Shown here: positions 2,395-19,377 of the stretch, one piece after another
How the letters are laid out: each line of letters starts with the position of its first letter
Numbering within the stretch: the stretch's first letter is position 1
Assembly: GCA_021786375.1 (NCBI GenBank)
Contig: JAJYNL010000091.1
Coordinates: 1 to 34,276, forward strand
Length of the DNA stretch: 34,276 bases
DNA from: Actinomycetes bacterium
GTDB lineage: Bacteria > Actinomycetota > Acidimicrobiia > Acidimicrobiales > Acidimicrobiaceae
Direction: 5' to 3'
Position numbers and translations under genes: made by a program
Notes under the pieces: model-generated
What the model was told of the DNA's origin: nothing
Database searches by the model: none
The model's input: the letters and a program-made list of their open reading frames with translations, nothing else

Positions 2395-2423
2395 TTGACG
2401 CGCCCCCTTGGTCCTGTTACCAT
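2395..2423 (+). promoter_or_regulatory. Putative sigma-70 type promoter of the sHdr cluster
   Basis: TTGACG at 2395-2400 and TACCAT at 2418-2423 are separated by exactly 17 bases, about 110 bases upstream of the tusA start. The -10 matches consensus at four of six positions. It lies in the 216-base intergenic region shared with the divergent SDR gene. Confidence 0.5.
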
Positions 2424-2431
2424 ACTCTCCA

Positions 2432-2483
2432 ATCCGGTATATGCACGTATTCGCAAGTAGATGAATCGCCTTTATATCCGGAT
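2432..2483. promoter_or_regulatory. Imperfect inverted repeat just downstream of the promoter, possible operator
   Basis: ATCCGGTATAT at 2432-2442 and ATATCCGGAT at 2474-2483 form an interrupted inverted repeat sharing ATCCGG arms. Position relative to the proposed -10 would suit a repressor site. ArsR at 20054-20404 is the nearest candidate regulator. This is speculative; the arms could instead fold in the 5' UTR. Confidence 0.3.
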
Positions 2484-2534
2484 CGACCGAGCATCGGGGG
2501 GTGCTGGTCACTTCAATCTGGGGGGATTGAAAAT

Positions 2535-2774
2535 ATGGACGACGTCTTGGCCTCGCGCGTTCTCGATTGCCAAGGGCTTCAGTGCCCGCTTCCAGTTGTA
2601 AAGACCGCGCAGGAGTTCAAGAAGCTCGAGGTCGGGGAGACCTTGGAGCTTCTTGCCACCGACCCCGGTGTCGAGCCCGACATGCGTGCCTGGACCAACC
2701 GGACCGGGAATGAGCTCGTAAAGATCGAGCGGGTGGGCGACGTCTTCCACGTTCTTCTCCGGCGCGCCAAGTAG
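2535..2774 (+). CDS. tusA: TusA-family sulfur carrier
   Basis: The gene encodes 79 residues, the usual TusA length. The signature LDCQGLQCPLPVVKT is at residues 10-24; Cys17 in the CPLP motif is the expected persulfide-carrying cysteine, and Cys12 is an extra one. TusA moves sulfane sulfur between proteins in the cytoplasm. As first gene of the sHdr cluster, followed by a DsrE3-type gene, it is placed as in other sHdr operons, where TusA-DsrE pairs feed sulfur to the Hdr-like complex. Start ATG 2535 is preceded by GGGGGGATT. The same 13-base leader ATCTGGGGGGATT recurs before the next gene. A single promoter at 2395-2423 probably drives the run. Confidence 0.93.
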   Translation: MDDVLASRVLDCQGLQCPLPVVKTAQEFKKLEVGETLELLATDPGVEPDMRAWTNRTGNELVKIERVGDVFHVLLRRAK

Positions 2775-2836
2775 CCGAGCCGACTCGCCCCGGACGGGGT
2801 GTTTCGCGCCAAATCAATAGTACAAACACACGCAAC

Positions 2837-2849
2837 ATCTGGGGGGATT
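2837..2849 (+). promoter_or_regulatory. Repeated translation-initiation leader (ATCTGGGGGGATT)
   Basis: The 13 bases ATCTGGGGGGATT occur at 2516-2528 before tusA and again here before the dsrE gene, six and four bases from the respective starts. It contains the ribosome binding site. An unusual G6 core recurs before dsrE_2 (about 18191-18196). Confidence 0.55.
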
Positions 2850-2853
2850 CATC

Positions 2854-3240
2854 GTGTGGAGCAATGACGACGGCGAAGGCCGTATTCTTTACGTGCAAAC
2901 CCACGGGGTGAACGACCCCGGCCGATCCGCGACACCTTTCTTCCTCGCCGCCTCTGCGGCGGCGATGGAGGTCGAGGTGGGGATCTACTTCACCATGTAC
3001 GGCCCCACCCTCCTGCAGAAGGAGGTGGTCGACAAGATCGGGCCCAAGGGCGATCGCGGACAGCGACTCTCCTATTTCATCAAGCAGGCCACCGACCTCG
3101 GCGTCCGCCTCTTCGTCTGCCAGCCCAGCCTGGATTTGAACGATCTGGCCATTGAAGACCTCATCGACGACGTCGAGATGATCGGCGGCGCGGCATTCAA
3201 CGACCTCGCCATGTCGGCCGATGCGGTGATCTCCTTCTAG
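2854..3240 (+). CDS. dsrE3: DsrE3-type sulfurtransferase
   Basis: The gene encodes 128 residues from a GTG at 2854, fixed by the GGGGGGATT just upstream. The fold signature is that of the DsrE family: an N-terminal strand (ILYVQTHG), a GIYFTMYGP segment at residues 43-51, and a conserved cysteine, Cys89, in LGVRLFVCQPSLDL. In sHdr organisms DsrE3A-type proteins exchange sulfur with TusA and pass it toward the Hdr-like complex. The 78-base gap to tusA contains no clear terminator, and only two bases separate it from shdrC1. A second, more distant DsrE-family gene closes the cluster at 18204. The subgroup DsrE3 is inferred from context and the single conserved Cys. Confidence 0.82.
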   Translation: MWSNDDGEGRILYVQTHGVNDPGRSATPFFLAASAAAMEVEVGIYFTMYGPTLLQKEVVDKIGPKGDRGQRLSYFIKQATDLGVRLFVCQPSLDLNDLAIEDLIDDVEMIGGAAFNDLAMSADAVISF

Positions 3241-3242
3241 CC

Positions 3243-3962
3243 ATGGCCAACGTGACTGCGCACCCCTATCTCAAGCTCGCCGATCCGGCAGGATTTGCGG
3301 AGGTCCCCTTCGACGAGAAGAAGCGCCTTATCGACAAGGTCGTGGCGGATCCACGCTTCCCCCACTACCTGTACGGCTGCTATGAGTGCGGCATCTGCGT
3401 GGCGGCCTGCCCCTCGGCGCGCTTCTATGACTTCTCTCCCAGGCGCATAGCCCAGGCCGCCGCCCGCCTCGATATCGAGCTGATGTTCCAGCAGATGGAG
3501 GAGGACATCTGGGAGTGCTCCCAGTGCTTCTCCTGCCTGCGCTGTCCGCGTGGCAACAACCCGGGAGGCGTAATCACCGTGATGCGTGAGGTGGCGGTAA
3601 AAGAGGGCCTGCACTCCGCCAAGAGCGCGCTGGAGGGGTACTCCCGCATCATCTACAAGATCATGTCCACCGGGACCCAGGTCTCGCCCGACATGCTGCA
3701 GCCGGATGCGTTTCCCGACTGGGGGCCCGAGGTCAAGGACGTCTCGGAGAACCTGGCCCTCTGGCGCCGGGCACTTCCGCCCGAGACCCATCACACCACC
3801 ACCACCGGCTGGGAGGTGGCGGACTCCACCATCCTTGAGCTCTACGTCATCTGGCTGGAGACCGGGGCGCTGGAAATGATCCGCGAAGTCGACGCCGGCA
3901 TCCACATGATCCTCGAGGAGATCATGGAGGAGCGGCTGGAAGAGGAGGGAATCGAGCTATGA
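3243..3962 (+). CDS. shdrC1: sHdrC1, [4Fe-4S] electron-transfer subunit
   Basis: The gene encodes 239 residues. Two iron-sulfur motifs are visible: C46-x2-C49-x2-C52-x3-C56 followed by P, and C92-x2-C95-x2-C98-x2-C101 followed by PRGNNPGG. The shortened last spacing of the second motif is seen directly; ECSQCFSCLRCP is a form typical of HdrC1. The protein is soluble and should carry electrons between HdrB1 and HdrA in the sulfur-oxidizing complex. ATG 3243 follows the dsrE stop by two bases, and the end overlaps shdrB1 by ATGA (3959-3962), so translation is probably coupled. The acidic C-terminus (EEIMEERLEEEGIEL) has no recognisable domain. Confidence 0.92.
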   Translation: MANVTAHPYLKLADPAGFAEVPFDEKKRLIDKVVADPRFPHYLYGCYECGICVAACPSARFYDFSPRRIAQAAARLDIELMFQQMEEDIWECSQCFSCLRCPRGNNPGGVITVMREVAVKEGLHSAKSALEGYSRIIYKIMSTGTQVSPDMLQPDAFPDWGPEVKDVSENLALWRRALPPETHHTTTTGWEVADSTILELYVIWLETGALEMIREVDAGIHMILEEIMEERLEEEGIEL

Positions 3963-5146
3963 GCGATGCGGTTGCCGTCATACTGTCCAAGAAGAGCAGC
4001 TTCGAGCGCGAGCCCGACAGGCGCAGCGCCGACTTCCACGAGGAGCTTTTCGCGCTCGAGGCGGCGGGCGAGCTGATCGTCCAACGCGTCTCGGACGACT
4101 ACGTGAACGTGCCGACCAAGTACGGCATCCCCAAGAAGATCCAGCGGGGGCACCTCTGGCACCACAAGTCCTGTGGGCAGTGCGGCCACATTCCCGGCTA
4201 TTCGACCTCCATCTTCTGGATCATGCGCAAGCTCGGCTACGACTACAACGATCCGCGCGACCAGACCTCCTGCACCGCGTGGAACTACTACGCCAGCGCC
4301 ACCTCCAACCAGGCGGCCCAGGCGGCCGTGGCGTTGCGCAACTTCGCGGCGGCGTATGAGACCGGGTACTTCCCGCTCATCCACTGCGGCACCTCCTACG
4401 GGCACTACAAGGAGGTGCGCAACGAGCTCCTGCACCAGCCCGAGCTGCGCGCCCAGGTGCGCAAGGTGCTGGGCAAACTGGGCAAGGAGATGGTGATCCC
4501 CGAAGAGATCGTCCACTACTCGGAATGGCTCTACGCGATGCGGGACGAGATCGCGGCCAACTCGATTCTCGACCTCTCCAAGGTGGCGGTCACGGTCCAT
4601 CCCGCCTGCCACTATTACAAGCTGGTCGAAGGTGACGCCATCTATGACCCCGACGTCTGGCACGGCCAGCGTACGGCGGCGGTCTCCGGCCTGGTGCAGG
4701 CGCTCGGGGCCGAGCTCAAGACCTATTCCACCTTCTTCGATTGCTGCGGCTTCGGCTTCCGCCACATCCTGGTGCAGCGCGACTTCACGCGCTCCTTCGC
4801 CACCCTGCGCAAGATCGAAGTGATGCGGGAGGAGGCCAATCCCGACGTGGTTCTCACCCACGACACCGGCTGTGTCACCGCCCTGGACAAGAGCCAGTTC
4901 GCCACTCGCGCTCACGACCGCAACGTGGGCGTCCCGGTCATGTCCGAGGCGCAGTTCGCCGCGCTCTCCATGGGAGCCCATCCCTTCAAGGTGTGCCAGC
5001 TGCACTGGCACTCCACCGACTTCCGTCCGCTGCTCGAGAAGATGGGCATCGACCACGAGAAGGCCTGGGCGGAGTTCCAGGAGGACTTGAAGCGCCTGGA
5101 GTCGGGCGAGCAGCAGTACCTGACCTGGGCCGATACGGGCGTATAG
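3959..5146 (+). CDS. shdrB1: sHdrB1, CCG-domain subunit
   Basis: The gene encodes 395 residues. The C-terminal CCG-type half has C217, C262-C263 (DCCGFGF) and C305 (HDTGCVTALD), the ligands expected for a noncubane iron-sulfur site. The N-terminal half has C72 and C75 (KSCGQCGH), C105 and C143, but its CC pair is reduced to a single Cys (TSCTAW), so that half is atypical. In canonical heterodisulfide reductase HdrB is the disulfide-cleaving subunit; in sHdr it is thought to bind sulfane sulfur on the way to sulfite. It overlaps shdrC1 by four bases and is followed 47 bases later by shdrA. The length exceeds classical HdrB (about 300), with an N-terminal extension of about 65 residues. Confidence 0.9.
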   Translation: MSDAVAVILSKKSSFEREPDRRSADFHEELFALEAAGELIVQRVSDDYVNVPTKYGIPKKIQRGHLWHHKSCGQCGHIPGYSTSIFWIMRKLGYDYNDPRDQTSCTAWNYYASATSNQAAQAAVALRNFAAAYETGYFPLIHCGTSYGHYKEVRNELLHQPELRAQVRKVLGKLGKEMVIPEEIVHYSEWLYAMRDEIAANSILDLSKVAVTVHPACHYYKLVEGDAIYDPDVWHGQRTAAVSGLVQALGAELKTYSTFFDCCGFGFRHILVQRDFTRSFATLRKIEVMREEANPDVVLTHDTGCVTALDKSQFATRAHDRNVGVPVMSEAQFAALSMGAHPFKVCQLHWHSTDFRPLLEKMGIDHEKAWAEFQEDLKRLESGEQQYLTWADTGV

Positions 5147-5193
5147 CGCGTAGAGCTTGGTGGCAAGAACGAAGAAAGGAATAGGGAGCGAAA

Positions 5194-6255
5194 TTGGCTA
5201 GCTCTACTGTGGCGGTGATCGGCGGCGGCCCGGCCGGGTTGGCGGCGGCGGCCTCCGCGGCCTCGGTCGGCGCGGACGTGGTGATCATCGAGAAGCTTGG
5301 CTTCTTGGGCGGGAGACCGATCGAGGAGAACTACGCCTCGATAACCCCGTACCTGCGTAGCGCCGAGGAGGCGATGGGCGAGGTCATCGCCGGCACTCTC
5401 GCCTATCCCGCAGTGTCGGTGCGCCTCAACACCACCGTCACCGGCTGTACCGGCGAGCCGGGGGACTTCACCCTGGCGCTGGATGGGCCGGGCGGCGCGG
5501 AGAGCATCGAGGTCGCCTCCGTGGTGGTCGCCACCGGCTTCCAGCATTTCGACCCGGGCCGCGAGACCCAGCTCTATGGCTACTACGAGTTCGACGACGT
5601 CATCGCGCTGCAGGACCTGGAGGCGATGCTGAAGGAGGGCCGGGTGACGCGACCCTCCAACGGCGAGGAGCCCAAGCGTGTCTGCTTCATCCAGTGCGTC
5701 GGCTCACGCGACCGCCAGATCGGCAATGAGTACTGTTCCAAAGTCTGCTGCGGAGTCGCCTCCAAGGAGGCCACCGAGGTGCGCCTGGCCGTACCAGGCG
5801 TCGAGGTATTCATCTTCTACATCGACATGCGCATGTACGGGTACTGGGAGACCCAGATCTACTGGCCGGCCCAGGAGAAGCACCATGTCCAGTACATCAA
5901 GGGGATCATCACCGAGGTGCTGCCCAAGGACGGGAGACTGCTGGTGCGCGGCGAGGACACCACCATGGGAAGGCCGATGGAGGTTCCCATGGACCTGGTG
6001 GTGCTCTCGGTCGGCATGGAGCCGAGCCCGGGCACACGCAAGATGGCCGAGGTGCTCGGGATCGAGCAGAACCGCTTCGGATTCATTGAGGCGCCCAAGG
6101 GACCACTCGACACGGTCGCGACTTCGCGCGCGGGAATATTCGCCGCCGGCGCATCACTCGGCCCGGCCGACCTGGAGGACTGCTCCTCCAGTGGCGGCTT
6201 CGCCGGAGCACGGGCGGCGGCGGTGGCGCTTTCGGCTCGAGGGGCCCTGCGCTGA
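5194..6255 (+). CDS. shdrA: sHdrA, FAD and [4Fe-4S] subunit
   Basis: The gene encodes 353 residues from a TTG at 5194, chosen because AGGGAGCG precedes it and the FAD-binding strand starts at once (VAVIGGGPAGLAA, residues 6-18). A cysteine cluster C164, C168, C181, C185-C186 (QCVGSRD to YCSKVCCG) is the HdrA-type iron-sulfur motif. The C-terminal FAD contact is GIFAAGASLGPADLEDC. Length matches sHdrA, which lacks the extra ferredoxin domains of methanogen HdrA. It would accept electrons from the oxidized sulfur substrate and pass them to the downstream carrier. It lies in the conserved C1-B1-A-hyp order; hyp starts at the last base of its stop codon region (6255). Confidence 0.92.
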   Translation: MASSTVAVIGGGPAGLAAAASAASVGADVVIIEKLGFLGGRPIEENYASITPYLRSAEEAMGEVIAGTLAYPAVSVRLNTTVTGCTGEPGDFTLALDGPGGAESIEVASVVVATGFQHFDPGRETQLYGYYEFDDVIALQDLEAMLKEGRVTRPSNGEEPKRVCFIQCVGSRDRQIGNEYCSKVCCGVASKEATEVRLAVPGVEVFIFYIDMRMYGYWETQIYWPAQEKHHVQYIKGIITEVLPKDGRLLVRGEDTTMGRPMEVPMDLVVLSVGMEPSPGTRKMAEVLGIEQNRFGFIEAPKGPLDTVATSRAGIFAAGASLGPADLEDCSSSGGFAGARAAAVALSARGALR

Positions 6256-7004
6256 TGGCCATCGCGGGTTTTGCCGTGCGCAGCCAGCCCGCTGATCTCG
6301 AGGCGGCGGCGGAGTTCCATGCCGCGGTTGCCGAGAAGCTGGAACCGGGCGAGTGGGAGGCGATGGTCGCCGATCTGGCGGCCAAGTCGGCCAGGGTGCA
6401 GGGCGCTTTCGCCCGCCTGGCCGCAGGCGATGCCGGCGCGGGGAATGAGCTCCTGGGCGAGACTTTTGCCACCCGACGCCGTCTGCGGGACATATCCGCC
6501 ACTGTCCCGGAGTCCGAGCTTGCCGCCGCGCTTGCCGCCTTGGCCGATGTCTCGGTCAACCCGGGCCTGCGTGCTGCAGCTTTCGCGGATGCGCTTGCCG
6601 GAGCCGGTCAAGGCCTAAGCGACCTGGCCTGGGAGCTCATGCACTTCCTGGAGCCGGAGTTGGTCTGCCTGGCCAGCGCGTGGGTTTGGAACCCGGAGAC
6701 CGAAACGGGAGCGCTCAAGCTCCTGCTGGAGGAGGAGTACGACCTCTTCGGCACGGACGCCCCTGACTCCTACGGGCGGCTTTCCTTCGCCTCGGGCTAC
6801 GTGGCGCATGCCGCGCGGGCCGCGGGAATGCTGGGGGACGGCCCGCTCGTCTTCGAGCTGGACGTCTTGCTGGCCGGAGTATACGGCGTCTACATGGGCA
6901 CGGTCCTCGCCATGCGCATGACCAAGGAGTTCAACAAGATTCTGCCGCCGCTCGGCCAGCTGATGCGAAAGCTGCTCGGGCTGCGGAACGCTGAGAGGAG
7001 CTAG
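6255..7004 (+). CDS. Hyp, conserved sHdr cluster protein of unknown function
   Basis: The gene encodes 249 residues, mostly alanine-rich and predicted helical, without cysteine-based cofactor motifs: the only Cys is in LVCLASAWVW. The middle part (YGRLSFASGYVAHAARAAGML) and the C-terminus (MGTVLAMRMTKEFNKILPPLGQLMRKLLGL) look most ordered. In sHdr operons a hypothetical gene always follows hdrA, and this gene has that place, so I identify it by synteny. An assembly or structural role has been suggested for such proteins but is not established. The ATG at 6255 overlaps the shdrA stop (TGATGG), implying coupled translation. Five bases separate it from the next gene. Confidence 0.75.
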   Translation: MAIAGFAVRSQPADLEAAAEFHAAVAEKLEPGEWEAMVADLAAKSARVQGAFARLAAGDAGAGNELLGETFATRRRLRDISATVPESELAAALAALADVSVNPGLRAAAFADALAGAGQGLSDLAWELMHFLEPELVCLASAWVWNPETETGALKLLLEEEYDLFGTDAPDSYGRLSFASGYVAHAARAAGMLGDGPLVFELDVLLAGVYGVYMGTVLAMRMTKEFNKILPPLGQLMRKLLGLRNAERS

Positions 7005-7009
7005 CGAAG

Positions 7010-8326
7010 ATGCCGGTCGGAGGCAAAAAGCAGGCGCCGGTGGTGGTGGAGTTGGCCGAGGCAACGGTGATCTCCCCCGCATCGGGGCGGGAGTGGGACG
7101 TCTCGGGCAGCTGGAACCGGATGTTCGAGTCCCGCGTGCTCACCGATTACAGCTACGAGGGACTGGGTCGTATCGCCGCCCTTTCCGGAGGCGAGAGCCT
7201 GGAGTACTGCTACGGCTGTGGCAAGTGCGTGCCGGTCTGCCCGGTGGACCTGGTTTCGGAGTATGGGCCGCGCAAGATCCACCGCAAGGTGCAGACCGGG
7301 CTGGACCTGTTCACCTCCGACGAGCTCTGGAAGTGCACGACCTGTGCCAACTGCCTGAGGGTCTGCCCCAAGGGGGTGAACATGATCGAGATCATGCCCG
7401 CGGTGCGCGAGAAGGCCATCGACTCCGGCAGCGTCCCCGACGAGCTTTCCCAGGTCTTCGAGAAGACATTCCGCTACGGCAACGCCATGGGGGAGAACCC
7501 GCGCCGCCGGCACGCCTGGACCAAGGGCGCGGGCGTCGAGGTGCCGGTTCTGGCGAGTGACCCCCGCGAGGTCGACGTCCTGTTCTACGTGGAGGACTAC
7601 TGGAGCTACCACCCACGTGGCCAGCAGGCCGCCCAGGCCTTCTCGCGCCTGCTCACCCTGGCCGGCGTGGATTTCGCCATCCTCGGGGCGGAGGAGAAGA
7701 CCATTGGCGATTCCCAGCGCCTGGCCGGTGAGAAGGGCCTGTTCGAGGCGTTGATGGAGGACGTGGTGGGCACGCTCTCCAAGTACAGCTTCAACCGGAT
7801 CGTCACGCCCGACCCCCACGGCTACAACGCGCTTCGCAAGGAGTATCCAAAGTACGGGCACGAGTACCCGGTCCTCCACTACACCCAGCTGCTTGCCGAC
7901 CTGGTGGACAAGCTCCCACTCGTCAACTCCCTGGACAAGAAGGTCACCTTCCACGATCCCTGCTATCTGGGCCGCCACAACGGCGAGTACGACGCGCCCC
8001 GCAAGCTGATCGAAGCCATCCCCGGCGTGGAATTCGTGGAGATGGGGCGCTGCAAGGGGAACTCCTACTGCTGTGGAGGTGGAGGAGGAGGCATGTGGCT
8101 GGACGGCTTCAACTCCAATCACCTCTCTGAGCGCCTCTCCGAACGCCGTGTGCGCGAGGCCGCCGAGACCGGGGCGGAGATCCTGGCGGTGTGCTGTCCT
8201 TATGAGGTCTCCCGCTTCGAGGACGCCGCCAAGTCGACCGGTAATTCACACCTGGCCGTGATGGATATCGCCGAGATGCTGGACTATGCCACCGGCGGTC
8301 TTGCCACCCTGGGTTCAGGGGTCTAG
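7010..8326 (+). CDS. shdrB3: HdrC-HdrB fusion protein (sHdrB3-like)
   Basis: The gene encodes 438 residues. An N-terminal ferredoxin part has C67-x2-C70-x2-C73-x3-C77-P and C109-x2-C112-x2-C115-x3-C119-P. The rest is HdrD-like: an N-terminal CCG half without any cysteine (about 188-300), then C318 (HDPCYLGRHN), C354-C355 in YCCGGGGGGMW, and CCPYE at 395-399, where the canonical second Cys of CxxC is Glu. It replaces the separate hdrC2 and hdrB2 genes of the other sHdr layout. As I recall, B3 with etfAB and emo defines the second layout. It is clearly paralogous to the C-terminal 400 residues of the EMO protein at 14707 (shared WTKG, DPHxxNxLRxEYPxYG, HDPCYLGR). Probable role: electron relay between sHdrA/LbpA and Etf. 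Confidence 0.8.
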   Translation: MPVGGKKQAPVVVELAEATVISPASGREWDVSGSWNRMFESRVLTDYSYEGLGRIAALSGGESLEYCYGCGKCVPVCPVDLVSEYGPRKIHRKVQTGLDLFTSDELWKCTTCANCLRVCPKGVNMIEIMPAVREKAIDSGSVPDELSQVFEKTFRYGNAMGENPRRRHAWTKGAGVEVPVLASDPREVDVLFYVEDYWSYHPRGQQAAQAFSRLLTLAGVDFAILGAEEKTIGDSQRLAGEKGLFEALMEDVVGTLSKYSFNRIVTPDPHGYNALRKEYPKYGHEYPVLHYTQLLADLVDKLPLVNSLDKKVTFHDPCYLGRHNGEYDAPRKLIEAIPGVEFVEMGRCKGNSYCCGGGGGGMWLDGFNSNHLSERLSERRVREAAETGAEILAVCCPYEVSRFEDAAKSTGNSHLAVMDIAEMLDYATGGLATLGSGV

Positions 8327-9346
8327 ATGCCGGATAAGCTGCGTGTTCTCGACTTCGGGCCGGTCAGCCCTCTGCGCAGCCAGAGCATCTGGCATGCGTT
8401 GGCCGAGGCCGCCGGGGAGACCGGGCGCGCGACGCTCTCGTTCATGCGCCCGGCCGCACCCTACGTGGGGATCGGCATGCAGCGCTCCATAGCGGAGGTC
8501 GATCTTGACTACTGCCGCTCCGCCGGGTTGTCGGTGATCCGCCGCCGGGTGGGAGGCGGGCCGGTTTACCTCGATGCCCGCCAGCTCTTCTTCCAGGTAA
8601 GCATGCCCAGGCGATCCCTTCCGGCTTCGCGTGGAGAGGCCATCTCCGGCCTGCTCGGACCGCTCGCGCCGGCCTTTGCCGCCGCCGGCATAGACGCCTC
8701 GTTGGACGGCTCGGGGGAGCTATCCGCTTCCGGCGCCAAGGTCTGCGGCCATGGCGCCGGCGAGATAGGTGACGGGGTGGCGGTGGTAGGGAACCTGATC
8801 ACCGCCTTCAATTACACGCGGGCCGCCGGCATCTGCTGGACAGGTTCGGCCAGGGTCACCGAGCGGCTCGAGGCGCTGATGCGCCGTTGGGTCGGCTCTT
8901 TCCCCCACGACCTGGACGCCTCAGCCTTCGTGGCCGCGGCCCCGGTGGCCCTGGCCGAGGCTCTGGGGATGGAGGCGGAGGCGGGGGAGCTCGACAGCCG
9001 CGAGCAGCAGCTCATCCGGGCCTGGGACAACCAGCTCTCCGATCCCGCCTGGACCAGGGAAGGGGAGTTTCCTCCTCCGGCGCCCGGGGCACTGCGGGTG
9101 GTGAAGATCCGCTCCGGGGTGCACGCAATTTTTAGGACCACCTCGGGGCCGGGATTCTTCGCGACCGCGGAGTGGGGGCGCCTGACAGGCTTGGAACGCC
9201 TCGGGGAGGAGTGCCCGCCCGCGCTGGAGGGCGAAGAGGTACGTGCGGCTCTCGCCGCGCTGGCTGGCGCCGGCTGGCTGGATGAGTCGGAGCTGCGCGC
9301 CATTTCGCGCGCTGGGGTGATGGAAAGCGAGGGGGTGCGGGCATGA
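8327..9346 (+). CDS. LplA/LipM-family lipoate- or octanoyl-transfer enzyme
   Basis: The gene encodes 339 residues and starts directly after the shdrB3 stop. The LplA/LipB/LipM fold signature is RRRVGGGPVYLD at 72-83, and the catalytic lysine is Lys138 in SGAKVCGHGAG. Cys140 next to it is unusual. After about residue 215 there is a C-terminal part (DPAWTREGEFPPP ... GVHAIFRTT) resembling a degenerate LplA C-terminal domain, plus an extra ~60 residues. It could be a ligase for free lipoate/octanoate or an octanoyl transferase of LipM type; the sequence does not decide. It overlaps lbpA by four bases (ATGA 9343-9346), which points to LbpA as its substrate. Confidence 0.72.
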   Translation: MPDKLRVLDFGPVSPLRSQSIWHALAEAAGETGRATLSFMRPAAPYVGIGMQRSIAEVDLDYCRSAGLSVIRRRVGGGPVYLDARQLFFQVSMPRRSLPASRGEAISGLLGPLAPAFAAAGIDASLDGSGELSASGAKVCGHGAGEIGDGVAVVGNLITAFNYTRAAGICWTGSARVTERLEALMRRWVGSFPHDLDASAFVAAAPVALAEALGMEAEAGELDSREQQLIRAWDNQLSDPAWTREGEFPPPAPGALRVVKIRSGVHAIFRTTSGPGFFATAEWGRLTGLERLGEECPPALEGEEVRAALAALAGAGWLDESELRAISRAGVMESEGVRA

Positions 9347-9786
9347 AGCGCCTGAACGTCGAAGGCTACGAGTTGCGCGGCGATCTCTACTACGACGCCA
9401 AGGCCGACATGTGGCTATCCGTCGAGGACGGGTTGGCCCGGGTCGGCTACGACCCGCTGGGGCTGGAGATCAACGGAACCCTGGCCGCACTGGTTTTGGC
9501 TGAGCCAGGTCGCGAGGTGACCCGTGGCCAGGCGGCGGGTTCGCTGGAGGCGGAGAAGTTCGTCGGTCCGGTCACCGCCCCGGTCAGCGGGGTTGTCGAG
9601 GCGGTCAACCAGGAGGTCGTCGGCAACCTGGCGCGGATCTACGCCGACCCTTACGCCGCCTGGCTGCTGGCCATCCGCATGAGCGACCCTTCCGAGCTGG
9701 AGGAGCTGGTGACGGGGGACGCACTGAACGAGTCCTTTGCCCGACGCCTGCAGGCCTATCGTGCCCAAGGAGTCCTGGCGCGATGA
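9343..9786 (+). CDS. lbpA: Lipoate-binding protein LbpA (GcvH-like), copy 1
   Basis: The gene encodes 147 residues, GcvH-like. The predicted lipoylation site is Lys72 in LEAEKFVGPVTAPVSG, the hairpin turn position of lipoyl domains. In sHdr organisms LbpA is a dedicated lipoyl protein needed for sulfur oxidation, distinct from glycine cleavage H protein; no gcvP or gcvT is present in this window. It overlaps the ligase-family gene upstream and the radical SAM gene downstream by ATGA, placing it inside its own modification operon. The C-terminus (ALNESFARRLQAYRAQGVLAR) is longer than in classical GcvH. Two paralogues lie at 17245 and 17689; this copy has EKF where they have KW, so it is the most divergent. 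Confidence 0.87.
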   Translation: MKRLNVEGYELRGDLYYDAKADMWLSVEDGLARVGYDPLGLEINGTLAALVLAEPGREVTRGQAAGSLEAEKFVGPVTAPVSGVVEAVNQEVVGNLARIYADPYAAWLLAIRMSDPSELEELVTGDALNESFARRLQAYRAQGVLAR

Positions 9787-12969: not shown

Positions 12970-13733
12970 AGATCGTCGTGGCGATGCGACAAATCGCCGA
13001 CCTGGTGGAGGAGCTCGAGGTTGATGCCTCGGGCGCCGACATCGACCGGGAGTTCGTGAAGTTCGTCTCCAACGAGTGGGACGAGGCAGCCCTGGAGGAG
13101 GCGCTCTGCCTGAAAGAGGCCCACGGTGGGGAGGTGGTGGTGGTCGGTGTCGACGACGTCGACTTCGACCAGACCCTCTTTGGTGCGCTGGCCAAGGGAG
13201 CCGATCGCGCCGTGAAGCTGAGCTGCGGCTTCGAAGGCTGGATGCCCACTGCGGTTCGTGCGGAAATCCTGGCCCGCTGGCTGAAGGATGAGGCCTTCGA
13301 CCTGGTCCTCACGGGAGTTCAGGCCGCAGACGACCTGGACGGGCAGCTGGCCGGGGTGCTCGGCGCCCGCCTGGGCCTGCCGCACGCGGCAGTTGTTGTC
13401 GGGCTCGAGCCAGACGGGGAGGGCTTCAAGGTCACCCAGGAGCTCGGAGGCGGCGTGACGCTCACCTCTCATGCCACCGGGCCGCTGGTTCTCGGCATCC
13501 AGGCCGCACGGCAGGCTCCCCGCTATGTCCCGATCTCCCGCATCCGCCAGGCCATGTCCGCAGGGGGGATCGAGGAGGTCGAGGTGGAGGCGCCCCCTGC
13601 GCGCGCCCCCAGGGTTACCAGGCTCTTCGCCCCCGAGGCCAAGGGGCGCGCCGAGATGCTCGGCGACAAGCCGTCCGAGGTGGCGGCGCGCATTCTGGAG
13701 CTGATCCGCGCCAAGGGCGTCGGCGTTTCCTAG
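12966..13733 (+). CDS. etfB: Electron transfer flavoprotein beta subunit
   Basis: The gene encodes 255 residues, normal for EtfB. MKIVVAMRQIADL is the typical start, NEWDEAALEEAL follows, and GVQAADDLDGQLA at 117-129 is the nucleotide-binding motif (D-x-x-x-x-Q). It forms a heterodimer with EtfA at 13744, ten bases downstream. Position between the lipoate genes and the membrane EMO gene suggests that this Etf collects electrons from the sHdr/LbpA system rather than from acyl-CoA dehydrogenases. It overlaps the preceding gene by four bases. Whether it binds AMP or a second FAD, as in bifurcating Etfs, is not resolved by eye. Confidence 0.92.
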   Translation: MKIVVAMRQIADLVEELEVDASGADIDREFVKFVSNEWDEAALEEALCLKEAHGGEVVVVGVDDVDFDQTLFGALAKGADRAVKLSCGFEGWMPTAVRAEILARWLKDEAFDLVLTGVQAADDLDGQLAGVLGARLGLPHAAVVVGLEPDGEGFKVTQELGGGVTLTSHATGPLVLGIQAARQAPRYVPISRIRQAMSAGGIEEVEVEAPPARAPRVTRLFAPEAKGRAEMLGDKPSEVAARILELIRAKGVGVS

Positions 13734-13743
13734 GAGGATTGAA

Positions 13744-14703
13744 ATGGCAGAAAACGACGTCGTTGTCATAGCCGAGCGGGTGGTCGGCGGCCACCCGGAT
13801 GTCACCTTCGAGCTTCTCGGCAAAGCCAAGGAGATCGCCTCCGCCCTGGGTGGCGAGGTGCACTGCCTGGTGGTGGGGGATTCCGAAGGTCACGAGTGCC
13901 TGGGCGCCTCGGACCACCTGCACCTGGTGGAGGGTGAGCATCTCTGGCCCTACAACCCCCATGCCTGGGAGAGCGCGGTTTCGGCGCTCCTCTCCGAGCT
14001 GAAGCCGCGGTTGGTGCTGGCATCCACCGGGACGGTGGGGATCGACCTCTGTGGCGCATTGGCGGCCCAGTCAGGAGCAATGCTTGCCTCCTACGTGGTC
14101 GACCTCTCCCTAGAGGGCTCGTCGCTTGTGGCCGTGGCCCAGCTTTACGGAGGCAAGCTGATGGCCGAGTGCGATCTGGGCGAGGGCCCGGCCTTCGTCA
14201 CCGCGATCCCCGGCTCCTTTGCCGGCCTGGCGGCGCGGGTGGACGGGGTTGCCGATCCCATTGCGCACGGCCATGAGGGCGCCGAGGTGCGCATGCGCCA
14301 TGTGGCCCTGACCGAGCCGGAGAAGACCGGGGTGGACATCACCTCGGAGGAGGTGCTGGTATCGGTGGGCCGGGGAATCGGCGGCCAGTCCAACATCGAG
14401 CTGGCCCAGGAACTGGCCGAGGTGCTGGGAGCGGGCTTGTCGGCCTCGCGCCCGGTCATCGACCAGGGCTGGCTGCCCAAGGCCCATCAGGTAGGCAAGT
14501 CGGGCAAGAAGGTGAAGCCCAAGGTCTACCTGGCGCTCGGCATCTCGGGGGCGCCGGAGCACCTGGAGGGCATGAGGCAGGCCGAGCTGATCATCGCCTG
14601 CAACACCGATGCCACAGCCCCGATCTTCGAGGTGGCTCATTACGGGACCACGGCCGATCTCTTCGACCTGGTTCCCGAGATCCTGGACTTGATCGGGGGG
14701 TAG
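13744..14703 (+). CDS. etfA: Electron transfer flavoprotein alpha subunit
   Basis: The gene encodes 319 residues. The C-terminal FAD domain has GRGIGG at 209-214, SRPVID at 235-240, QVGKSGKKVKP at 249-259 and GISGAPEHLEGM at 266-277, ending DLFDLVPEILDLIGG. In most EtfA the fourth motif reads GISGAxQH; here Gln is replaced by Glu272, close to the flavin, which could alter its redox potential. The ribosome binding site is TAGGAGGATTGAA before ATG 13744. It is the partner of etfB upstream and followed three bases later by the EMO gene, so the three make an Etf to quinone module. Confidence 0.92.
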   Translation: MAENDVVVIAERVVGGHPDVTFELLGKAKEIASALGGEVHCLVVGDSEGHECLGASDHLHLVEGEHLWPYNPHAWESAVSALLSELKPRLVLASTGTVGIDLCGALAAQSGAMLASYVVDLSLEGSSLVAVAQLYGGKLMAECDLGEGPAFVTAIPGSFAGLAARVDGVADPIAHGHEGAEVRMRHVALTEPEKTGVDITSEEVLVSVGRGIGGQSNIELAQELAEVLGAGLSASRPVIDQGWLPKAHQVGKSGKKVKPKVYLALGISGAPEHLEGMRQAELIIACNTDATAPIFEVAHYGTTADLFDLVPEILDLIGG

Positions 14704-14706
14704 CGG

Positions 14707-16902
14707 ATGCTTTTGGCGGTGGTTGAGACCCGCAAGATCTTCGGGGGCACGACACATCTTGAGCGGGTCTTTTTCTATCTGCTCGCGCTGGTGGTGCTGG
14801 TCGTGTTCTTCGTGGGGCTTGGCCTCCGGGTGAAGAAGTACATGGCGGGGCGGCCGCTCGATGCGGGCCGCTTCCGTCGTGCGCGCGTGCCATTGGAGAA
14901 GCCGGGGGTATCGGCGCCTATTCCTCTCACCCAGACCGGGGTGGATATTGCCGCCAATCGCACCGTCAGCCGACGCAATCACGCTGTGGGCGGGGCCCAC
15001 CTGCTCCTCTTCTGGGGCTTCCTGGGGCTGCTGGCCGCGACCATCATCGTCGGCCTCGACTACGACGTCTACGGCAACCTCACCAGGATCTTCGGGGGCA
15101 AGGAGCTTTCCTTCTTCAAGGGGTGGTTCTACCTCGCCTACAACGCGGTCTTCGACACCGCCGGCCTGGCGGCGATCGTGGGTGCGGTGCTCTTGGCGGT
15201 GCGCCGGATCCGGGATTCCAAGTCCTCGGTGGAGCTGGACTACACCCGCGCCCAGAAGCCCAAGAGCGGATATTCCCGTGCGGCCATGACCGCGGGCGAT
15301 CACCTCTTCATCTTCGGGCTTATCTTCATCCTGGCCACCGGAATCCTGCTCCAGGGGCTGCGTATCGACGCGGCGGGCTTTCCTTCCTTCGAGCGCTGGA
15401 CCTGGCTGGGATATCTGGTCGCGGCGGGTTTCGGGGCGCTGGGCCTGCACGGCTCGACGGCCGTGACCGCGCACTTCTGGCTGTGGTGGGTGCACATCCT
15501 GACGGCGCTGGCCTTCGTTGCCTACCTTCCCTTCTCCAAGGCGCTGCACATGATCTCGGCTCCCGCCAACCTGATGGTGCGCGACCCGGGTAACACCCGC
15601 CGGCTCCCCCCGCCTCCCCCTGGTCACGCCGGATATCTGGACTTCTCCGACTTCACCTCCAAGGAGTTGCTCGGCTTCGACGCCTGCACCAAGTGCGGGC
15701 GCTGTCACTCGGTCTGCCCGGCCCGCACCGGAGGAGCGCCCCTTTCCCCGCGCGACCTCATCCTCGACCTGCGCCAGTATGCCGACCGCAAGCGCGGGAT
15801 CCCCATGGTCCTGGATTGGGAGGAGCGCCCCGATCAGAGCGGGCCCAAGAACCTGGAAGGGCGTCTGGCGGGAGAGGTGATCGAGCCGGCCACCCTCTGG
15901 TCCTGTACCACCTGCATGGCCTGCGTGGAGATCTGCCCGGTGGGCATAGAGCACGTCCCCACCATCGTCTCTTTGCGGCGTAGCCTGGTGGACGCGGGAG
16001 AGATGGATCCCACCCTGCAGGCGGCGCTGGAGAACATCGCCACCCAGGGCAACTCCTTTGGCAAGTCCTCGCGCATGCGGGCCCGTTGGACCAAGGGCCT
16101 CGAGGCGCCCATTCCCGACGCGCGCAAGGAGGAGGTCGAGTACCTCTGGTTCCTGGGGGACTTCGCCTCGTTCGACGAGCGTCTGCAGGAGATCTCCCGC
16201 ATGCTGGCCCGGGTGCTCACCTCCAACGGAATCAGCTTCGGGATTCTCTACGAGGACGAGCGCAACGCCGGCAACGACGTCCGCCGTGCCGGCGAGGAAG
16301 GCCTCTTCGAGATGCTGGTGGAGAAGAACATGGAGGCCTTCTCCAAGGCCAGCTTCCAGAAGATCTTCACCACCGACCCGCACAGCTTCAATACGCTGCG
16401 CAACGAGTATCCGGCCTATGGCCTGGACAAGCCGGTGATGCACTACTCGGAGCTGCTCGCCTCCCTGATCTCGCAGGGCCGTGTCTCGCTATCCGGCCTG
16501 GGCAAGAAGGTCACCTACCACGACCCCTGCTACCTGGGCCGCTACAACCGGGTCTTCGACGCTCCGCGCAGTGTGATCACCTCGGCCGGCTGCGACCTGG
16601 TGGAGATGCCGCGCAACCGCACCAACAGCTTTTGCTGTGGCGCCGGCGGTGGGCGGATCTGGATGGACGACTCGGTGTTGGAGGAGCGGCCCAGCCACAA
16701 CAGGATCCGTGAGGCCGCAGAGCTGGATGTCGGCTACTTCGTTGTGGCCTGCCCCAAGGACTACGCAATGTTCTCCGACGCCGTGAAGTCCACCGGCAAC
16801 GAGGGGCGCATGAAGGTGGTGGACATCGTCGAGCTATTTGCCGAGGCAAGCGGTGAGCTGGCTCTGGCGGGTTCGGCCCCGGAGGAGGCTCCCGAGTCAT
16901 GA
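14707..16902 (+). CDS. emo: Membrane Etf:quinone oxidoreductase (EMO), NarI-HdrC-HdrD fusion
   Basis: The gene encodes 731 residues. The N-terminus has about six transmembrane segments (near 20-42, 97-116, 147-166, 198-218, 232-250, 256-275) of NarI-like cytochrome b type, with histidines such as H98, H199, H256 and H263 available for heme. Then come two [4Fe-4S] motifs, C327/C330/C333/C337 and C400/C403/C406/C410. The HdrD-like part has C608 (HDPCYLGR), C643-C644 (CCGAGGG) and C682 in ACPKD, where the last Cys of CxxC is Asp. The N-terminal CCG half has no cysteine. Such proteins are annotated as HdrD-related iron-sulfur reductases; EMO passes Etf electrons to menaquinone. It follows etfA by three bases and is paralogous to the fusion protein at 7010. 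Confidence 0.87.
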   Translation: MLLAVVETRKIFGGTTHLERVFFYLLALVVLVVFFVGLGLRVKKYMAGRPLDAGRFRRARVPLEKPGVSAPIPLTQTGVDIAANRTVSRRNHAVGGAHLLLFWGFLGLLAATIIVGLDYDVYGNLTRIFGGKELSFFKGWFYLAYNAVFDTAGLAAIVGAVLLAVRRIRDSKSSVELDYTRAQKPKSGYSRAAMTAGDHLFIFGLIFILATGILLQGLRIDAAGFPSFERWTWLGYLVAAGFGALGLHGSTAVTAHFWLWWVHILTALAFVAYLPFSKALHMISAPANLMVRDPGNTRRLPPPPPGHAGYLDFSDFTSKELLGFDACTKCGRCHSVCPARTGGAPLSPRDLILDLRQYADRKRGIPMVLDWEERPDQSGPKNLEGRLAGEVIEPATLWSCTTCMACVEICPVGIEHVPTIVSLRRSLVDAGEMDPTLQAALENIATQGNSFGKSSRMRARWTKGLEAPIPDARKEEVEYLWFLGDFASFDERLQEISRMLARVLTSNGISFGILYEDERNAGNDVRRAGEEGLFEMLVEKNMEAFSKASFQKIFTTDPHSFNTLRNEYPAYGLDKPVMHYSELLASLISQGRVSLSGLGKKVTYHDPCYLGRYNRVFDAPRSVITSAGCDLVEMPRNRTNSFCCGAGGGRIWMDDSVLEERPSHNRIREAAELDVGYFVVACPKDYAMFSDAVKSTGNEGRMKVVDIVELFAEASGELALAGSAPEEAPES

Positions 16903-17195
16903 TCGAGGAAGCGACCTGCAACGCGGACGGCTTCACCGGCAGCCCCCGGCAGTTGATCGAGCACTTTGATTCGGCCCATCCCGAGCTGGTGGAAATCATC
17001 TCCGAAGGCGGGCGCTGGTACTACCGGGTTCGCTGCCCCGCGTGCAGTGAGAGCCACCAGCGCCAGATCCGCCGTGGTGCGGGAGCGGACTTCGCGGAGG
17101 AGTACCGGGAGGAGATCCGCGCCGTCGGCCTGGACATCCTGCTCGGGCATTACCTGGGAGAGCACGTCCTGGGTGGGGAGGAGGGCCCCGCCTAG
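16899..17195 (+). CDS. 98-residue protein of unknown function with CxxC
   Basis: The gene encodes 98 residues, starting with an ATGA overlap with emo. Visible features: Cys7, then H22 and H27 in LIEHFDSAHPEL, a strand-like EIISEGGRWYYRVRC, C46-x2-C49 (RCPACSE) and H53. The Cys/His pattern could bind one zinc or an iron-sulfur cluster. The middle part resembles the conserved core of small proteins that contact a nucleic acid or another protein through a zinc knuckle, but I do not recognise a family. The C-terminal half is helical (EEYREEIRAVGLDILLGHYLGEHV). Tight coupling to emo suggests a role in maturation or regulation of that electron-transfer module. Its stop codon lies inside a 20-base palindrome. 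Confidence 0.7.
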   Translation: MIEEATCNADGFTGSPRQLIEHFDSAHPELVEIISEGGRWYYRVRCPACSESHQRQIRRGAGADFAEEYREEIRAVGLDILLGHYLGEHVLGGEEGPA

Positions 17196-17203: not shown

Positions 17204-17244
17204 GCCACTGAGGGGCCGGGGGGAGCCGGCCAAGGAGGGTGAAG

Positions 17245-17682
17245 TTGGCGACACTGAACGGGTGCAACATCCCGGAGGAGCTTTACTACGTGGTGGAGAA
17301 GCACGTCTGGGCGCGCCCGGACGGGGACGAGGTGGTGGTGGGCCTGACCGACGTGGCGCAGAACATGGCCAAGACCATCATCTCGGTCACGGCCAAGGGT
17401 GCCGGCAAGCCGATCAAGCGCGGCAAGAGCGTTGCCACGGTGGAGAGCGGCAAATGGGTGGGTCCGGTTCCCTCCCCGGTGGAAGGGCAGGTGGTCGCCA
17501 TCAATGCGGCCCTGGTGGCCCATCCGGGGCTGTTGAACAGCGACCCCTATGGGGAGGGCTGGATTGCACGCCTGGCCCCGGAGAACTGGGACGCCGACGC
17601 CGCCGAACTGGTCACCGGGAGCGATGGGGTGGCCCAATATCAGGCCTTCCTCGACTCCCAGGGGATCTCCTGCACGGAGTGA
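17245..17682 (+). CDS. lbpA: Lipoate-binding protein (GcvH-like), copy 2
   Basis: The gene encodes 145 residues from TTG 17245. AAGGAGG at 17232-17238 is six bases from this TTG but would overlap a GTG start at 17239, so TTG is preferred. It is GcvH-like, with start ATLNGCNIPEELYYVVEKHVW, and the lipoylation lysine is Lys70 in VESGKWVGPVPSPVEG. DPYGEGW near the C-terminus is typical of GcvH-like proteins. No glycine cleavage partners are present, so it is taken as an sHdr lipoyl carrier. It is more like the copy at 17689 (ESxKWVGP shared) than the copy at 9343. Whether it is charged by the same enzymes is unknown. Confidence 0.85.
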   Translation: MATLNGCNIPEELYYVVEKHVWARPDGDEVVVGLTDVAQNMAKTIISVTAKGAGKPIKRGKSVATVESGKWVGPVPSPVEGQVVAINAALVAHPGLLNSDPYGEGWIARLAPENWDADAAELVTGSDGVAQYQAFLDSQGISCTE

Positions 17683-17688
17683 TCGACG

Positions 17689-18138
17689 ATGGAGGTCTGG
17701 GCGGGGTGCGCATTTCCCGAGGACGTGGTCTACGACCTCGACAGCGACACATGGGTTCGCGAGCTCGGGGACGGCGTGGCTGAGGTGGGGATGACCGATG
17801 TCTCCCAGTCACGCTCCGGCCGGCTGGTCCAGATCGGATGGAAGGATTCCGGGCGCAGGGTGGTGCGGGGACGCCCCCTCTGTGTGATAGAGAGTGCCAA
17901 ATGGGTGGGGCCTATGCGCTCCCCGCTCACCGGTGTGCTGGTGGCTGACAACCGTCCCGCCTTCGAGGCGGACATCGCGGTCGCCAATCGCGACCCTTAC
18001 GGCCTGGGCTGGTTCGTCCGGATCGAGATGGAGTCGCCCCAGGAGTTGGCCGGGCTCGTGAAGGCGGGGGAGGCCTTCGAGCACTACCGGCGGATTATCG
18101 ACGAGACCGGCCTTCGCTGCTTCCGCTGCGCGGACTGA
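17689..18138 (+). CDS. lbpA: Lipoate-binding protein (GcvH-like), copy 3
   Basis: The gene encodes 149 residues from ATG 17689, six bases after the previous stop, with a weak GGAG upstream. The lipoylation site is Lys71 in IESAKWVGPMRSPLTG, and DPYGLGWFVRIE is conserved with copy 2. It carries extra cysteines: Cys7, Cys65 near the lysine loop, and a C-terminal pair in GLRCFRCAD. The CxxC at the end is absent from copy 1; copy 2 ends in a single Cys (ISCTE). The tandem arrangement with copy 2 points to duplication followed by divergence, perhaps giving carriers for different steps. The intergenic hairpin at 18158-18182 separates it from the DsrE_2 gene. Confidence 0.82.
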   Translation: MEVWAGCAFPEDVVYDLDSDTWVRELGDGVAEVGMTDVSQSRSGRLVQIGWKDSGRRVVRGRPLCVIESAKWVGPMRSPLTGVLVADNRPAFEADIAVANRDPYGLGWFVRIEMESPQELAGLVKAGEAFEHYRRIIDETGLRCFRCAD

Positions 18139-18157
18139 CAGGGCGGCTCGCATCAGG

Positions 18158-18182
18158 CTTTGCCGCAGTGTGTGTGGCAAAG
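18158..18182 (+). other. Intergenic hairpin between lbpA copy 3 and dsrE_2
   Basis: CTTTGCC at 18158-18164 pairs with GGCAAAG at 18176-18182 around an 11-base GT-rich loop. There is no T-run, so a weak attenuator or processing site is more likely than a full terminator. Confidence 0.4.
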
Positions 18183-18203
18183 GAGAAACAGGGGGGAAAG
18201 ACA

Positions 18204-18707
18204 ATGAGCGAGAATTCGGAGGATTTCTCAGGGGCCAAGAAAATGGCCATGATTTGCTGGAGCTCGGATCTGGACCGCGTTTGGCCGGTGCTGATACTGG
18301 CCACCACCGCGGCCGCCTCCGGGCTGGAGGTGGACGTCTTCTTCACCTTCTGGGGCCTGCGGGTATTGCAGCGTAACGAGGTGCGCACCACTGGAAACAA
18401 CTGGATGCAGAAGATGGAGTCGGTGGTTGACCGCGGCGGCACCGACCACCTGAAGCTGGGCAAGATCCACTTCGGGGGAGCCGGGACCAAGATGATCAAG
18501 ATGCTGGCCAAGGAGTACAAGGTTGCGAGCCCCAGCGAGCTGCTGGAGATGGCCATGGACCTGGGGGTTCGCCTGCATCCCTGTCAGATGACCATGGAGC
18601 TCTACGGGCTCTCCAAGGACGACTTCATCGACGGCCTGCAGACCCCGATCGGCGCGGCATCCTTTATCGATATGGCGGCCGAAGCCGACATATCGATGTT
18701 CATCTGA
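18204..18707 (+). CDS. DsrE_2-family (DsrE/DsrF/DrsH-like) protein
   Basis: The gene encodes 167 residues from ATG 18204, fixed by GGGGGGAAAGACA just upstream; a GTG at 18168 also opens the frame but has no ribosome binding site. Family signatures are KKMAMICWSSDLDRVWP, EVDVFFTFWGLRVL and LGVRLHPCQMTMELYGL with Cys127, the conserved cysteine of DsrE_2 proteins, plus Cys18. Family members near TusA and rhodanese genes are thought to handle sulfane sulfur; no transmembrane segment is obvious here. It closes the sHdr cluster, which opens with a different DsrE protein. The 1-base spacing to the next gene implies co-transcription. Confidence 0.85.
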   Translation: MSENSEDFSGAKKMAMICWSSDLDRVWPVLILATTAAASGLEVDVFFTFWGLRVLQRNEVRTTGNNWMQKMESVVDRGGTDHLKLGKIHFGGAGTKMIKMLAKEYKVASPSELLEMAMDLGVRLHPCQMTMELYGLSKDDFIDGLQTPIGAASFIDMAAEADISMFI

Positions 18708-18708
18708 A

Positions 18709-19377
18709 TTGGAACGCGCACCTGCCGCGGGGGTCGTGTGGCTCCTTGCCGAGGACGCCGCGGTGGTGCGCGCCGTCACGCGAGTGTGCGCAGAGGCAGG
18801 GGCCGGACTTTATCGGACCCCTCCACCGTTGAATACGCCCTGCGTCGCCCTCGCCGACGCCTCGGGCTCAGGCCCGGCCGATCTGGTTGCCTCGGTACGG
18901 GCAGCGCTGCCCGAGGCCTACCTGCTTGGCTTCATGGCGGCTCCCGACCCCGATGGGTGGCGAGCCGCCGAGCGCGCCGGCTTTGACGAGGTGGCGAGCC
19001 GCGGAGCCCTGGGGCCGTCGCTCAGGCGTGCGCTTTCCCGGCTGACGGAGGGTGGGGGAGTGAGGTCCTATGCCATCTGCGATGCCCAGGATGTGGCGGG
19101 ACGGATCGGCTTCCTACTGGAAACAGAAGTGCCGGGTCTGGGCAAGGTGTCGCTCTTCCGCGAGCAGGGACGCCTGGTCTGTCTCGGAACCTGCCCCCAT
19201 CAGGGGGCCCCTTTGGGGCGCGGGGAGATCGAGGACGGCGTGGTCACCTGCCCTGCCCACGGCAGTCGTTTCGACATCCTGACCGGCGAACGCGTAAGAG
19301 GGCCGAGCGACTTCGACGTCCCATGCCACGGCGCCTACGAGCAGGGCGGGAGAATCTGGGTGCTGAAGCGGCTGTAA
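18709..19377 (+). CDS. Degenerate receiver-like domain fused to a Rieske [2Fe-2S] domain
   Basis: The gene encodes 222 residues from a TTG at 18709, one base after the previous stop; a GTG at 18736 is an alternative. Residues 8-112 look like a response-regulator receiver fold: acidic pocket LLAEDAAVV, a VALAD strand with Asp50 at the phosphorylation position, a FMAAP strand, and GFDEVASRGALGPSLRRAL at the end, where the usual Lys is absent. Residues 119-222 are a Rieske domain: C162-x-H164 (CPHQG), then C181-x2-H184 (CPAHG), all four ligands present with a 16-residue gap. It may be a soluble ferredoxin serving the sHdr or an assembly enzyme, with a pseudo-receiver for docking. I know no named family with this layout. 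Confidence 0.7.
   Translation: MERAPAAGVVWLLAEDAAVVRAVTRVCAEAGAGLYRTPPPLNTPCVALADASGSGPADLVASVRAALPEAYLLGFMAAPDPDGWRAAERAGFDEVASRGALGPSLRRALSRLTEGGGVRSYAICDAQDVAGRIGFLLETEVPGLGKVSLFREQGRLVCLGTCPHQGAPLGRGEIEDGVVTCPAHGSRFDILTGERVRGPSDFDVPCHGAYEQGGRIWVLKRL

Follow-up and report, generated by a model that had tools for sequence, protein, structure and literature searches.

Type II sHdr clusters are defined by the genes C1-B1-A-Hyp-B3 together with etfAB in one cluster (PMC11582611). 'Group III' clusters with EtfBA and two or three LbpA proteins have been described in Actinobacteria and Firmicutes (PMC6067878, eLife 2018), and the type I system of Hyphomicrobium denitrificans also has LbpA, LipS1/S2 and sLpl(AB) genes (PMC10332631). 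These papers, and PMC13083937 on mycobacterial EtfD, are cited throughout from excerpts of their text. Here we describe an sHdr cluster from an actinobacterial contig of 34,276 nucleotides (JAJYNL010000091.1, assembly GCA_021786375.1), the whole of which is referred to as the window. The assembly comprises 2.83 Mb in 119 contigs and is 95.3% complete.

Open reading frame calling combined with Pfam and NCBIfam matches gave 20 consecutive genes on the plus strand, spanning 2535-19377 of the window. Given the chosen starts, neighbouring genes overlap by 1–4 bp at 8 of the 19 junctions. A preliminary description of this DNA had listed the main genes in the same order and on the same strand, which the frames and family matches reproduce; the matches agree with every gene it named except Hyp. 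Its span of 2395-19377 is right at the end, which is the end of the Rieske-domain gene, but the start has to be moved to TusA at 2535. All genes of its list were recovered, and a second ligase-fold gene, two more LbpA/GcvH-like genes, a gene for a 98-amino-acid protein and DsrE2 had been omitted. The genes are given below. Residue conservation is expressed as aligned rows carrying the residue; except for LplA1, Lpl2 and the 98-amino-acid protein, these counts cover complete proteins only and leave out the near copies L002 and L003 as well as L056-L062.

2535..2774 (+), TusA sulfur carrier (PF01206, 76.7 bits; sole TusA match in the genome assembly; Cys17 in 43/43 rows)
2854..3240 (+), DsrE-like sulfurtransferase (PF13686/PF02635; Cys89 in 46/46)
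3243..3962 (+), sHdrC1, subunit with two 4Fe-4S ferredoxin-type sites (HdrC models, Fer4_8; eight Cys conserved)
3959..5146 (+), sHdrB1, CCG subunit with the proposed catalytic site C217, C262, C263, C305 (HdrB models, CCG)
5194..6255 (+), sHdrA flavoprotein of 353 amino acids (PDB 6TJR, 276.8 bits over the full length; tree)
6255..7004 (+), Hyp, sHdr cluster protein (no Pfam or NCBIfam family match; position kept in relatives)
7010..8326 (+), sHdrB3, fusion of ferredoxin and CCG parts (C2-B2 fusion), paralogue of the soluble part of EMO (Fer4 and CCG)
8327..9346 (+), LplA1, ligase-fold protein with altered active site E131, K138, C140, H142 (PF21948, 64.2 bits)
9343..9786 (+), LbpA_a, GcvH-like lipoyl protein with Lys72 and no Cys (GCV_H, 72.6 bits)
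9783..10754 (+), LipS1 lipoyl synthase (best match NF053742, 221 bits, below the cut-off of 230)
10751..11842 (+), Lpl2, sLpl(AB)-like lipoate:protein ligase with a GKND motif (PF21948, 107.1 bits)
11839..12969 (+), LipS2 lipoyl synthase (best match NF053743, 197.7 bits, below the cut-off of 270)
12966..13733 (+), EtfB (PF01012; closest solved relative 1O94, 124.1 bits)
13744..14703 (+), EtfA (PF00766 and PF01012)
14707..16902 (+), EMO, membrane Etf:(mena)quinone oxidoreductase, relative of EtfD (PDB 9OJN, 259.2 bits)
16899..17195 (+), zinc-finger-like protein of 98 amino acids with two CxxC...HxxxxH-type motifs (no family match)
17239..17682 (+), LbpA_b, lipoyl protein with N- and C-terminal Cys (GCV_H, 115.9 bits; C9, K72, C145 in 30/30)
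17689..18138 (+), LbpA_c, lipoyl protein with N- and C-terminal Cys (GCV_H, 88.8 bits; C7, K71, C144, C147 in 15/15)
18204..18707 (+), DsrE2 sulfur carrier (PF13686, 151.1 bits; Cys127 in 12/12)
18709..19377 (+), Rieske [2Fe-2S] domain protein (PF00355, 45.6 bits; C162, H164, C181, H184 conserved, 8 aligned rows)

The cluster belongs to type II sHdr and is complete. The genes shdrC1B1A-Hyp-B3 and etfAB lie in one syntenic cluster, and both LbpA_b and LbpA_c carry the lipoyl lysine and two terminal cysteines. Type I clusters have separate C2 and B2 genes (PMC11582611), whereas the window has the fused B3 as well as EtfAB and EMO. Homology to the Hyphomicrobium sHdrA structure 6TJR extends over practically the whole protein (276.8 bits, residues 6-341). 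Methanogen HdrA scores lower (184.4 bits) and is matched partially, mainly at residues 104-343; subunits A, B and C of methanogen HdrABC are distant homologues, but the HdrA of the window has only 353 amino acids and lacks extra domains. In an sHdrA tree of 51 rows, in which the L028 row is a paralogue rather than the sHdrA of that locus, 6TJR and the type II rows form one group, apart from methanogen HdrA (98/95). Tree and score therefore place the window protein on the sHdr side, as the preliminary description had expected. Its claim that the sHdr cluster is complete and comes with Etf and a membrane-bound Etf:quinone oxidoreductase is likewise supported, as sHdrA resembles 6TJR and EMO resembles EtfD with both heme ligands. 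The tree also sets the window protein beside metagenome-assembled genomes (MAGs) of Actinomycetota and one of Acidimicrobiaceae; the actinobacterial origin assigned in the preliminary description is borne out by gene trees only.

This kind of cluster is already known: it corresponds to Group III, reported from Actinobacteria and Firmicutes in PMC6067878. Shared with Group III and type II (PMC6067878, PMC11582611) are C1-B1-A-Hyp-B3 with EtfAB, two to three LbpAs, lipoate assembly genes and the occurrence in Actinobacteria. Relative to the excerpted accounts the window adds a Cys-less LbpA, an altered ligase-like gene and the genes for the 98-amino-acid and Rieske proteins, which do not exclude its membership. 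The joint behaviour of the lipoate genes and the likeness of EMO to EtfD short of the D1 ligands likewise go beyond these excerpts; for the Cys-less LbpA the comparison extends to the excerpts alone, no literature search aimed at it having been made. The earlier statement that an actinobacterial version with Etf output is little described has to be given up, as already the excerpts of these two papers cover it. Literature searches for sHdr in Actinobacteria or Actinomycetota came back nearly empty by these words. Since the main description uses 'Group III' and 'hdr-like' instead, such word searches understate what is known.

From the observed gene content and order, the conserved ligands and the joint behaviour of the lipoate genes, we infer the reactions of the pathway, their direction and their product as follows. 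TusA, DsrE and DsrE2 would hand sulfane sulfur to the Cys-bearing LbpA_b and LbpA_c. The sHdr core C1-B1-A-Hyp-B3 would then oxidise the LbpA-bound sulfur, most likely to sulfite, probably at the noncubane Fe-S site in the C-terminal part of B1, the only subunit with an Hdr-like bridging cysteine. Electrons would pass from C1, A and B3 to EtfAB and further through EMO (D2, D3, D4, heme b) to menaquinone. LplA1, LbpA_a, LipS1, Lpl2 and LipS2 are proposed to form a lipoyl-assembly module, in which LbpA_a may be the scaffold or a relay carrier. We consider it very probable that this is the type II sHdr-LbpA cluster with which an actinobacterium, by gene tree probably one of the Acidimicrobiaceae, oxidises sulfur in this way. 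In favour of this assignment, RuBisCO is present in the genome. Other observations weigh against it. The sHdrA tree contains a single type I sequence, 6TJR, which sits on a long branch. No dedicated route of sulfite oxidation emerged from searches of the genome: aprA, with a cut-off of 641.75 bits, reached 30.8, and there are one generic sulfite-oxidase-fold gene and one NIR_SIR match of 27.6 bits at a contig edge. A search of the genome for SoxY gave no match, and the controls gave none either.

Relatives were collected in one scan of genome contigs with the B3 protein, which yielded 61 loci. In 54 of these (L002-L055) tblastn found further cluster genes besides B3; 52 belong to Actinomycetota, all with the whole cluster or part of it, one to Calditrichota (L052) and one to Chloroherpetonaceae (L053). 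The other seven (L056-L062) showed only Etf/EMO-like matches or, in the case of L061, a B3-like piece at a contig end. Because the gene order recurs in the actinobacterial loci fetched with B3, it is not a product of chance. In a sample of 396 genomes from the phylum, five, among them that of the window, gave an sHdrB1 match at E<=1e-60. A search of plasmids for sHdrA references returned two distant matches. The cluster occurs in several actinobacterial groups; sulfur oxidation by a cytoplasmic sHdr system that is linked to the quinone pool by Etf would therefore not be limited to a few acidophiles. Two further sets were seen: L028 has an additional HdrA-HdrA-B3-like set at 70-4700, upstream of its main sHdr cluster, and genome G024 of the same phylum (L152, L156) has a more distant sHdr-like cluster with a B1 41% identical.

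The details of the lipoate module and of the Fe-S sites are the part worth following. Comparison raises the question how sulfur carriage and lipoyl assembly are divided among the LbpAs, and singles out B1 as the only subunit with an Hdr-like bridging cysteine. LipS1, LipS2 and a lipoate:protein ligase are encoded together, as in the sLpl(AB)-LipS1/S2 pathway. In 39 of the 54 loci B3 is followed by LplA1, in the other 15 (13 actinobacterial, 2 others) directly by EtfB. The order LplA1-LbpA_a-LipS1-Lpl2-LipS2 is found in all 26 loci readable from LplA1 to EtfB. Of the 13 actinobacterial genomes whose cluster has no module, six have LipS1 elsewhere, with the five genes together in 6/6. In a further genome, G099, LplA1-LbpA_a-LipS1-Lpl2 lie about 106 kb from sHdrB1, and the locus ends inside Lpl2. 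No LipS1 was detected at E<=0.001 in seven of the 13 genomes, including the isolate Ferrithrix thermotolerans. Matches at the level of LbpA_a occur in 9/9 LipS1-bearing and 0/7 LipS1-less genomes: the former have LbpA_a-profile matches of 3.1e-42 or better, the best matches of the latter range from 4.5e-19 to 2.2e-30, and LbpA_b of the window itself scores 2.0e-28. The genomes in this 16-genome test and in a 20-genome test are mostly MAGs whose completeness is not established. LplA1, LbpA_a, LipS1, Lpl2 and LipS2 behave as one module.

Judging by profile matches, LipS1-less genomes need not be ligase-less. Six of the seven have other ligase-fold matches to the LplA1 profile, with best E values from 6.7e-38 to 1.5e-65, and G009 has no further ligase-fold match to it; the nine LipS1-bearing genomes give 5.8e-84 or better. 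At these further ligase loci the motif is readable in only 2 of 11. LipA exceeds its cut-off in five of the seven, with a partial match in G011 and 25 bits only in G013. The LipS1 match (L077) in G019, the genome to which the Paraconexibacter antarcticus locus L050 belongs, contains one internal TGA.

Within the module LplA1 has an unusual active site. Its predicted fold (predicted local distance difference test, pLDDT, 92.5) is that of a lipoate:protein ligase, with archaeal 3R07 as first Foldseek match (E 1.2e-17), and Lys138 is found in 33/33 rows. A first LplA1 alignment of 36 rows had shown no cysteine at 95%; it contained three rows of another ligase with intact Asn-Asp (L009, L015, L017), and after these were dropped Cys140 stands in 30/33. 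Fold and lysine are what one would expect if LplA1 were an ordinary lipoate:protein ligase with neutral active-site changes, and one solved ligase, 1VQZ, also has a cysteine at the place of Cys140. We regard this explanation as a serious contender, though somewhat short of an even chance. Against it, the Asn-Asp motif is lost in 31/33 LplA1 rows, but the Lpl2 alignment, which includes one row of another ligase (L022), preserves it in 30/31. Moreover, Glu131 (x-Glu in place of Asn-Asp), Cys140 and His142 are each kept in 30/33, and Asp131 and Ser140 occur together, in the same three rows. The changes suggest an altered reaction, and with Cys140 beside Lys138 LplA1 is a candidate LipL/LipM-type enzyme.

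LbpA_a differs from the other two lipoyl proteins. The hallmark of LbpA is a pair of strictly conserved cysteines near the N- and C-terminus, some archaea excepted (PMC6067878). LbpA_a has the lipoyl Lys72 in 33/33 rows and lacks the terminal pair in 33/33; 27/33 are devoid of any cysteine and 6/33 have one or two inner ones. The pair is kept in LbpA_b (30/30) and LbpA_c (15/15). In a tree of 53 of 79 rows, which included no GcvH and for which the program warned of meeting long branches, LbpA_a and a Calditrichota protein lie on one side of a branch (100/98) apart from LbpA_b and LbpA_c; LbpA_a could be nearer to GcvH than to these two. The Calditrichota MAG encodes an LbpA without the terminal pair (one inner Cys) directly before Lpl-LipS1-LipS2.

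We propose that LbpA_a may be a scaffold or relay carrier of the lipoyl-assembly module rather than a sulfur carrier. Two observations speak against this part of the scheme. At E<=1e-33 the LbpA_a profile matches 10 of the 396 genomes of the phylum, five with sHdrB1 and five of one genus without; in the latter five (L157-L161), which lack sHdrB1 at E<=1e-60, a two-Cys LbpA adjoins LipS1 and a ligase. In G024 a profile match without the terminal pair adjoins TusA; the stretch covered there contains no LipS1. Because of these cases the profile score alone fails to separate the classes. Another LbpA of G024 has an N-terminal Cys. LbpA_a might instead be a third, redundant sulfur-carrying LbpA that lies among lipoate genes by chance, as its GcvH/LbpA-like build, the invariant lysine, the G024 match beside TusA and the known clusters with two or three LbpAs (PMC6067878) would allow. 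We think this rather unlikely, since the cysteine pair is absent throughout, LbpA_a branches separately, matches at its level occur only with LipS1 across the 16 genomes, and it accompanies LipS1 also where the module sits outside the cluster.

Taking LbpA_a as an assembly protein leads to a relay. In Bacillus subtilis (GcvH/LipM/LipL) modification starts on a GcvH-like carrier, from which a ligase-fold enzyme relays the acyl group to the working lipoyl domains (PMC6067878, PMC10332631). By analogy, Lpl2, LipS1 and LipS2 might build up lipoyl on the Cys-less LbpA_a, from which LplA1, acting as an acyltransferase, might move it to LbpA_b and LbpA_c. The idea would be the same, but the window has LipS1/S2 and an Lpl, and acyl transfer by LplA1 is putative. 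The relay is offered tentatively, as one possibility with the chances tilted against it, which G024 and the two-Cys LbpA cases lower slightly further. The Calditrichota arrangement suggests that such a relay would not be limited to Actinomycetota.

EMO keeps the heme ligands H98 and H281 and eight cubane cysteines in 32/32 rows, and equally the D2 histidine H559 with C608/C643/C644/C682. It thus shares with mycobacterial EtfD (9OJN, PMC13083937) the heme b pair (His78/241 in EtfD), two cubanes and the noncubane D2 site (His583 in EtfD). Unlike EtfD it lacks the ligands of the D1 linear [3Fe-4S] cluster: S560 stands at the D1 ligand Cys584 (S in 21, T in 10, A in 1 of 32), and no conserved Cys occurs between 410 and 608 in the 32 rows. 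By gene context it would work with sHdr and not with beta-oxidation. Without D1 ligands, EMO should accept Etf electrons at D2, an entry point left open by the EtfD authors in the excerpted text. B3 is 39% identical to the soluble part of EMO over 407 amino acids and has the same ligand pattern (H270 in 49/50); the His-ligated noncubane cluster is considered non-catalytic by the EtfD authors (PMC13083937). In B1, residues matched by eye from the alignments, C305 stands at the bridging Cys234 of methanogen HdrB, but S146 replaces Cys81 and D302 replaces Cys231, each in 46/46. Because the bridging cysteine is kept in B1 and the noncubane sites of B3 and EMO are His-ligated, catalysis is most likely to take place in B1, with B3 and EMO apparently serving electron transfer. 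EtfB scores 124 bits against 1O94, 64 against 5OL2 and 60 against 6FAH. We take 1O94 to be non-bifurcating and the other two to be bifurcating; the nearness to 1O94 would argue mildly against bifurcation.

EtfAB and EMO might instead serve fatty-acid oxidation and be mere neighbours of sHdr. An acyl-CoA-dehydrogenase-like frame does lie at 26002-27183 (named from sequence only), and EtfD links beta-oxidation to menaquinone in mycobacteria (PMC13083937). EtfB-EtfA-EMO, however, follow directly after B3 or the lipoate module in all long-enough relatives, including Calditrichota and Chloroherpetonaceae, and etfAB are part of the type II definition (PMC11582611), which makes such an independent role very improbable.

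The complex might also run reductively, with quinol or Etf feeding the reduction of a disulfide or persulfide, as methanogen Hdr homologues are reductases and sequence does not tell direction. Against this, TusA, DsrE and LbpA keep company with the cluster and the Hyphomicrobium homologue oxidises thiosulfate with formation of sulfite (PMC10332631); we rate it slightly less probable still.

The 98-amino-acid gene lies between EMO and LbpA_b and is present in 24 relatives. C7, H22, H27, C46, C49, H84 and H89 are kept in 25/25 rows, and in the window copy the first motif lacks its second Cys. Its predicted model (pLDDT 91.4) gave no PDB fold match at E<=0.001, and tblastn found no match to it in some clusters reading past EMO, for example L037, L039 and L048. 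In the Rieske protein the N-terminal half has no Pfam or NCBIfam assignment. Its gene adjoins DsrE2 in several relatives too, once on the opposite strand (L019).

Upstream of TusA an SDR-like gene lies on the minus strand at 1599-2456, and at 30812-32002, also on the minus strand, a thioredoxin-reductase-like flavoprotein is fused with a glutaredoxin-like stretch, both judged by their translations alone. At the contig edge, positions 1-481 of the window contain tandem-like repeats within an open frame.

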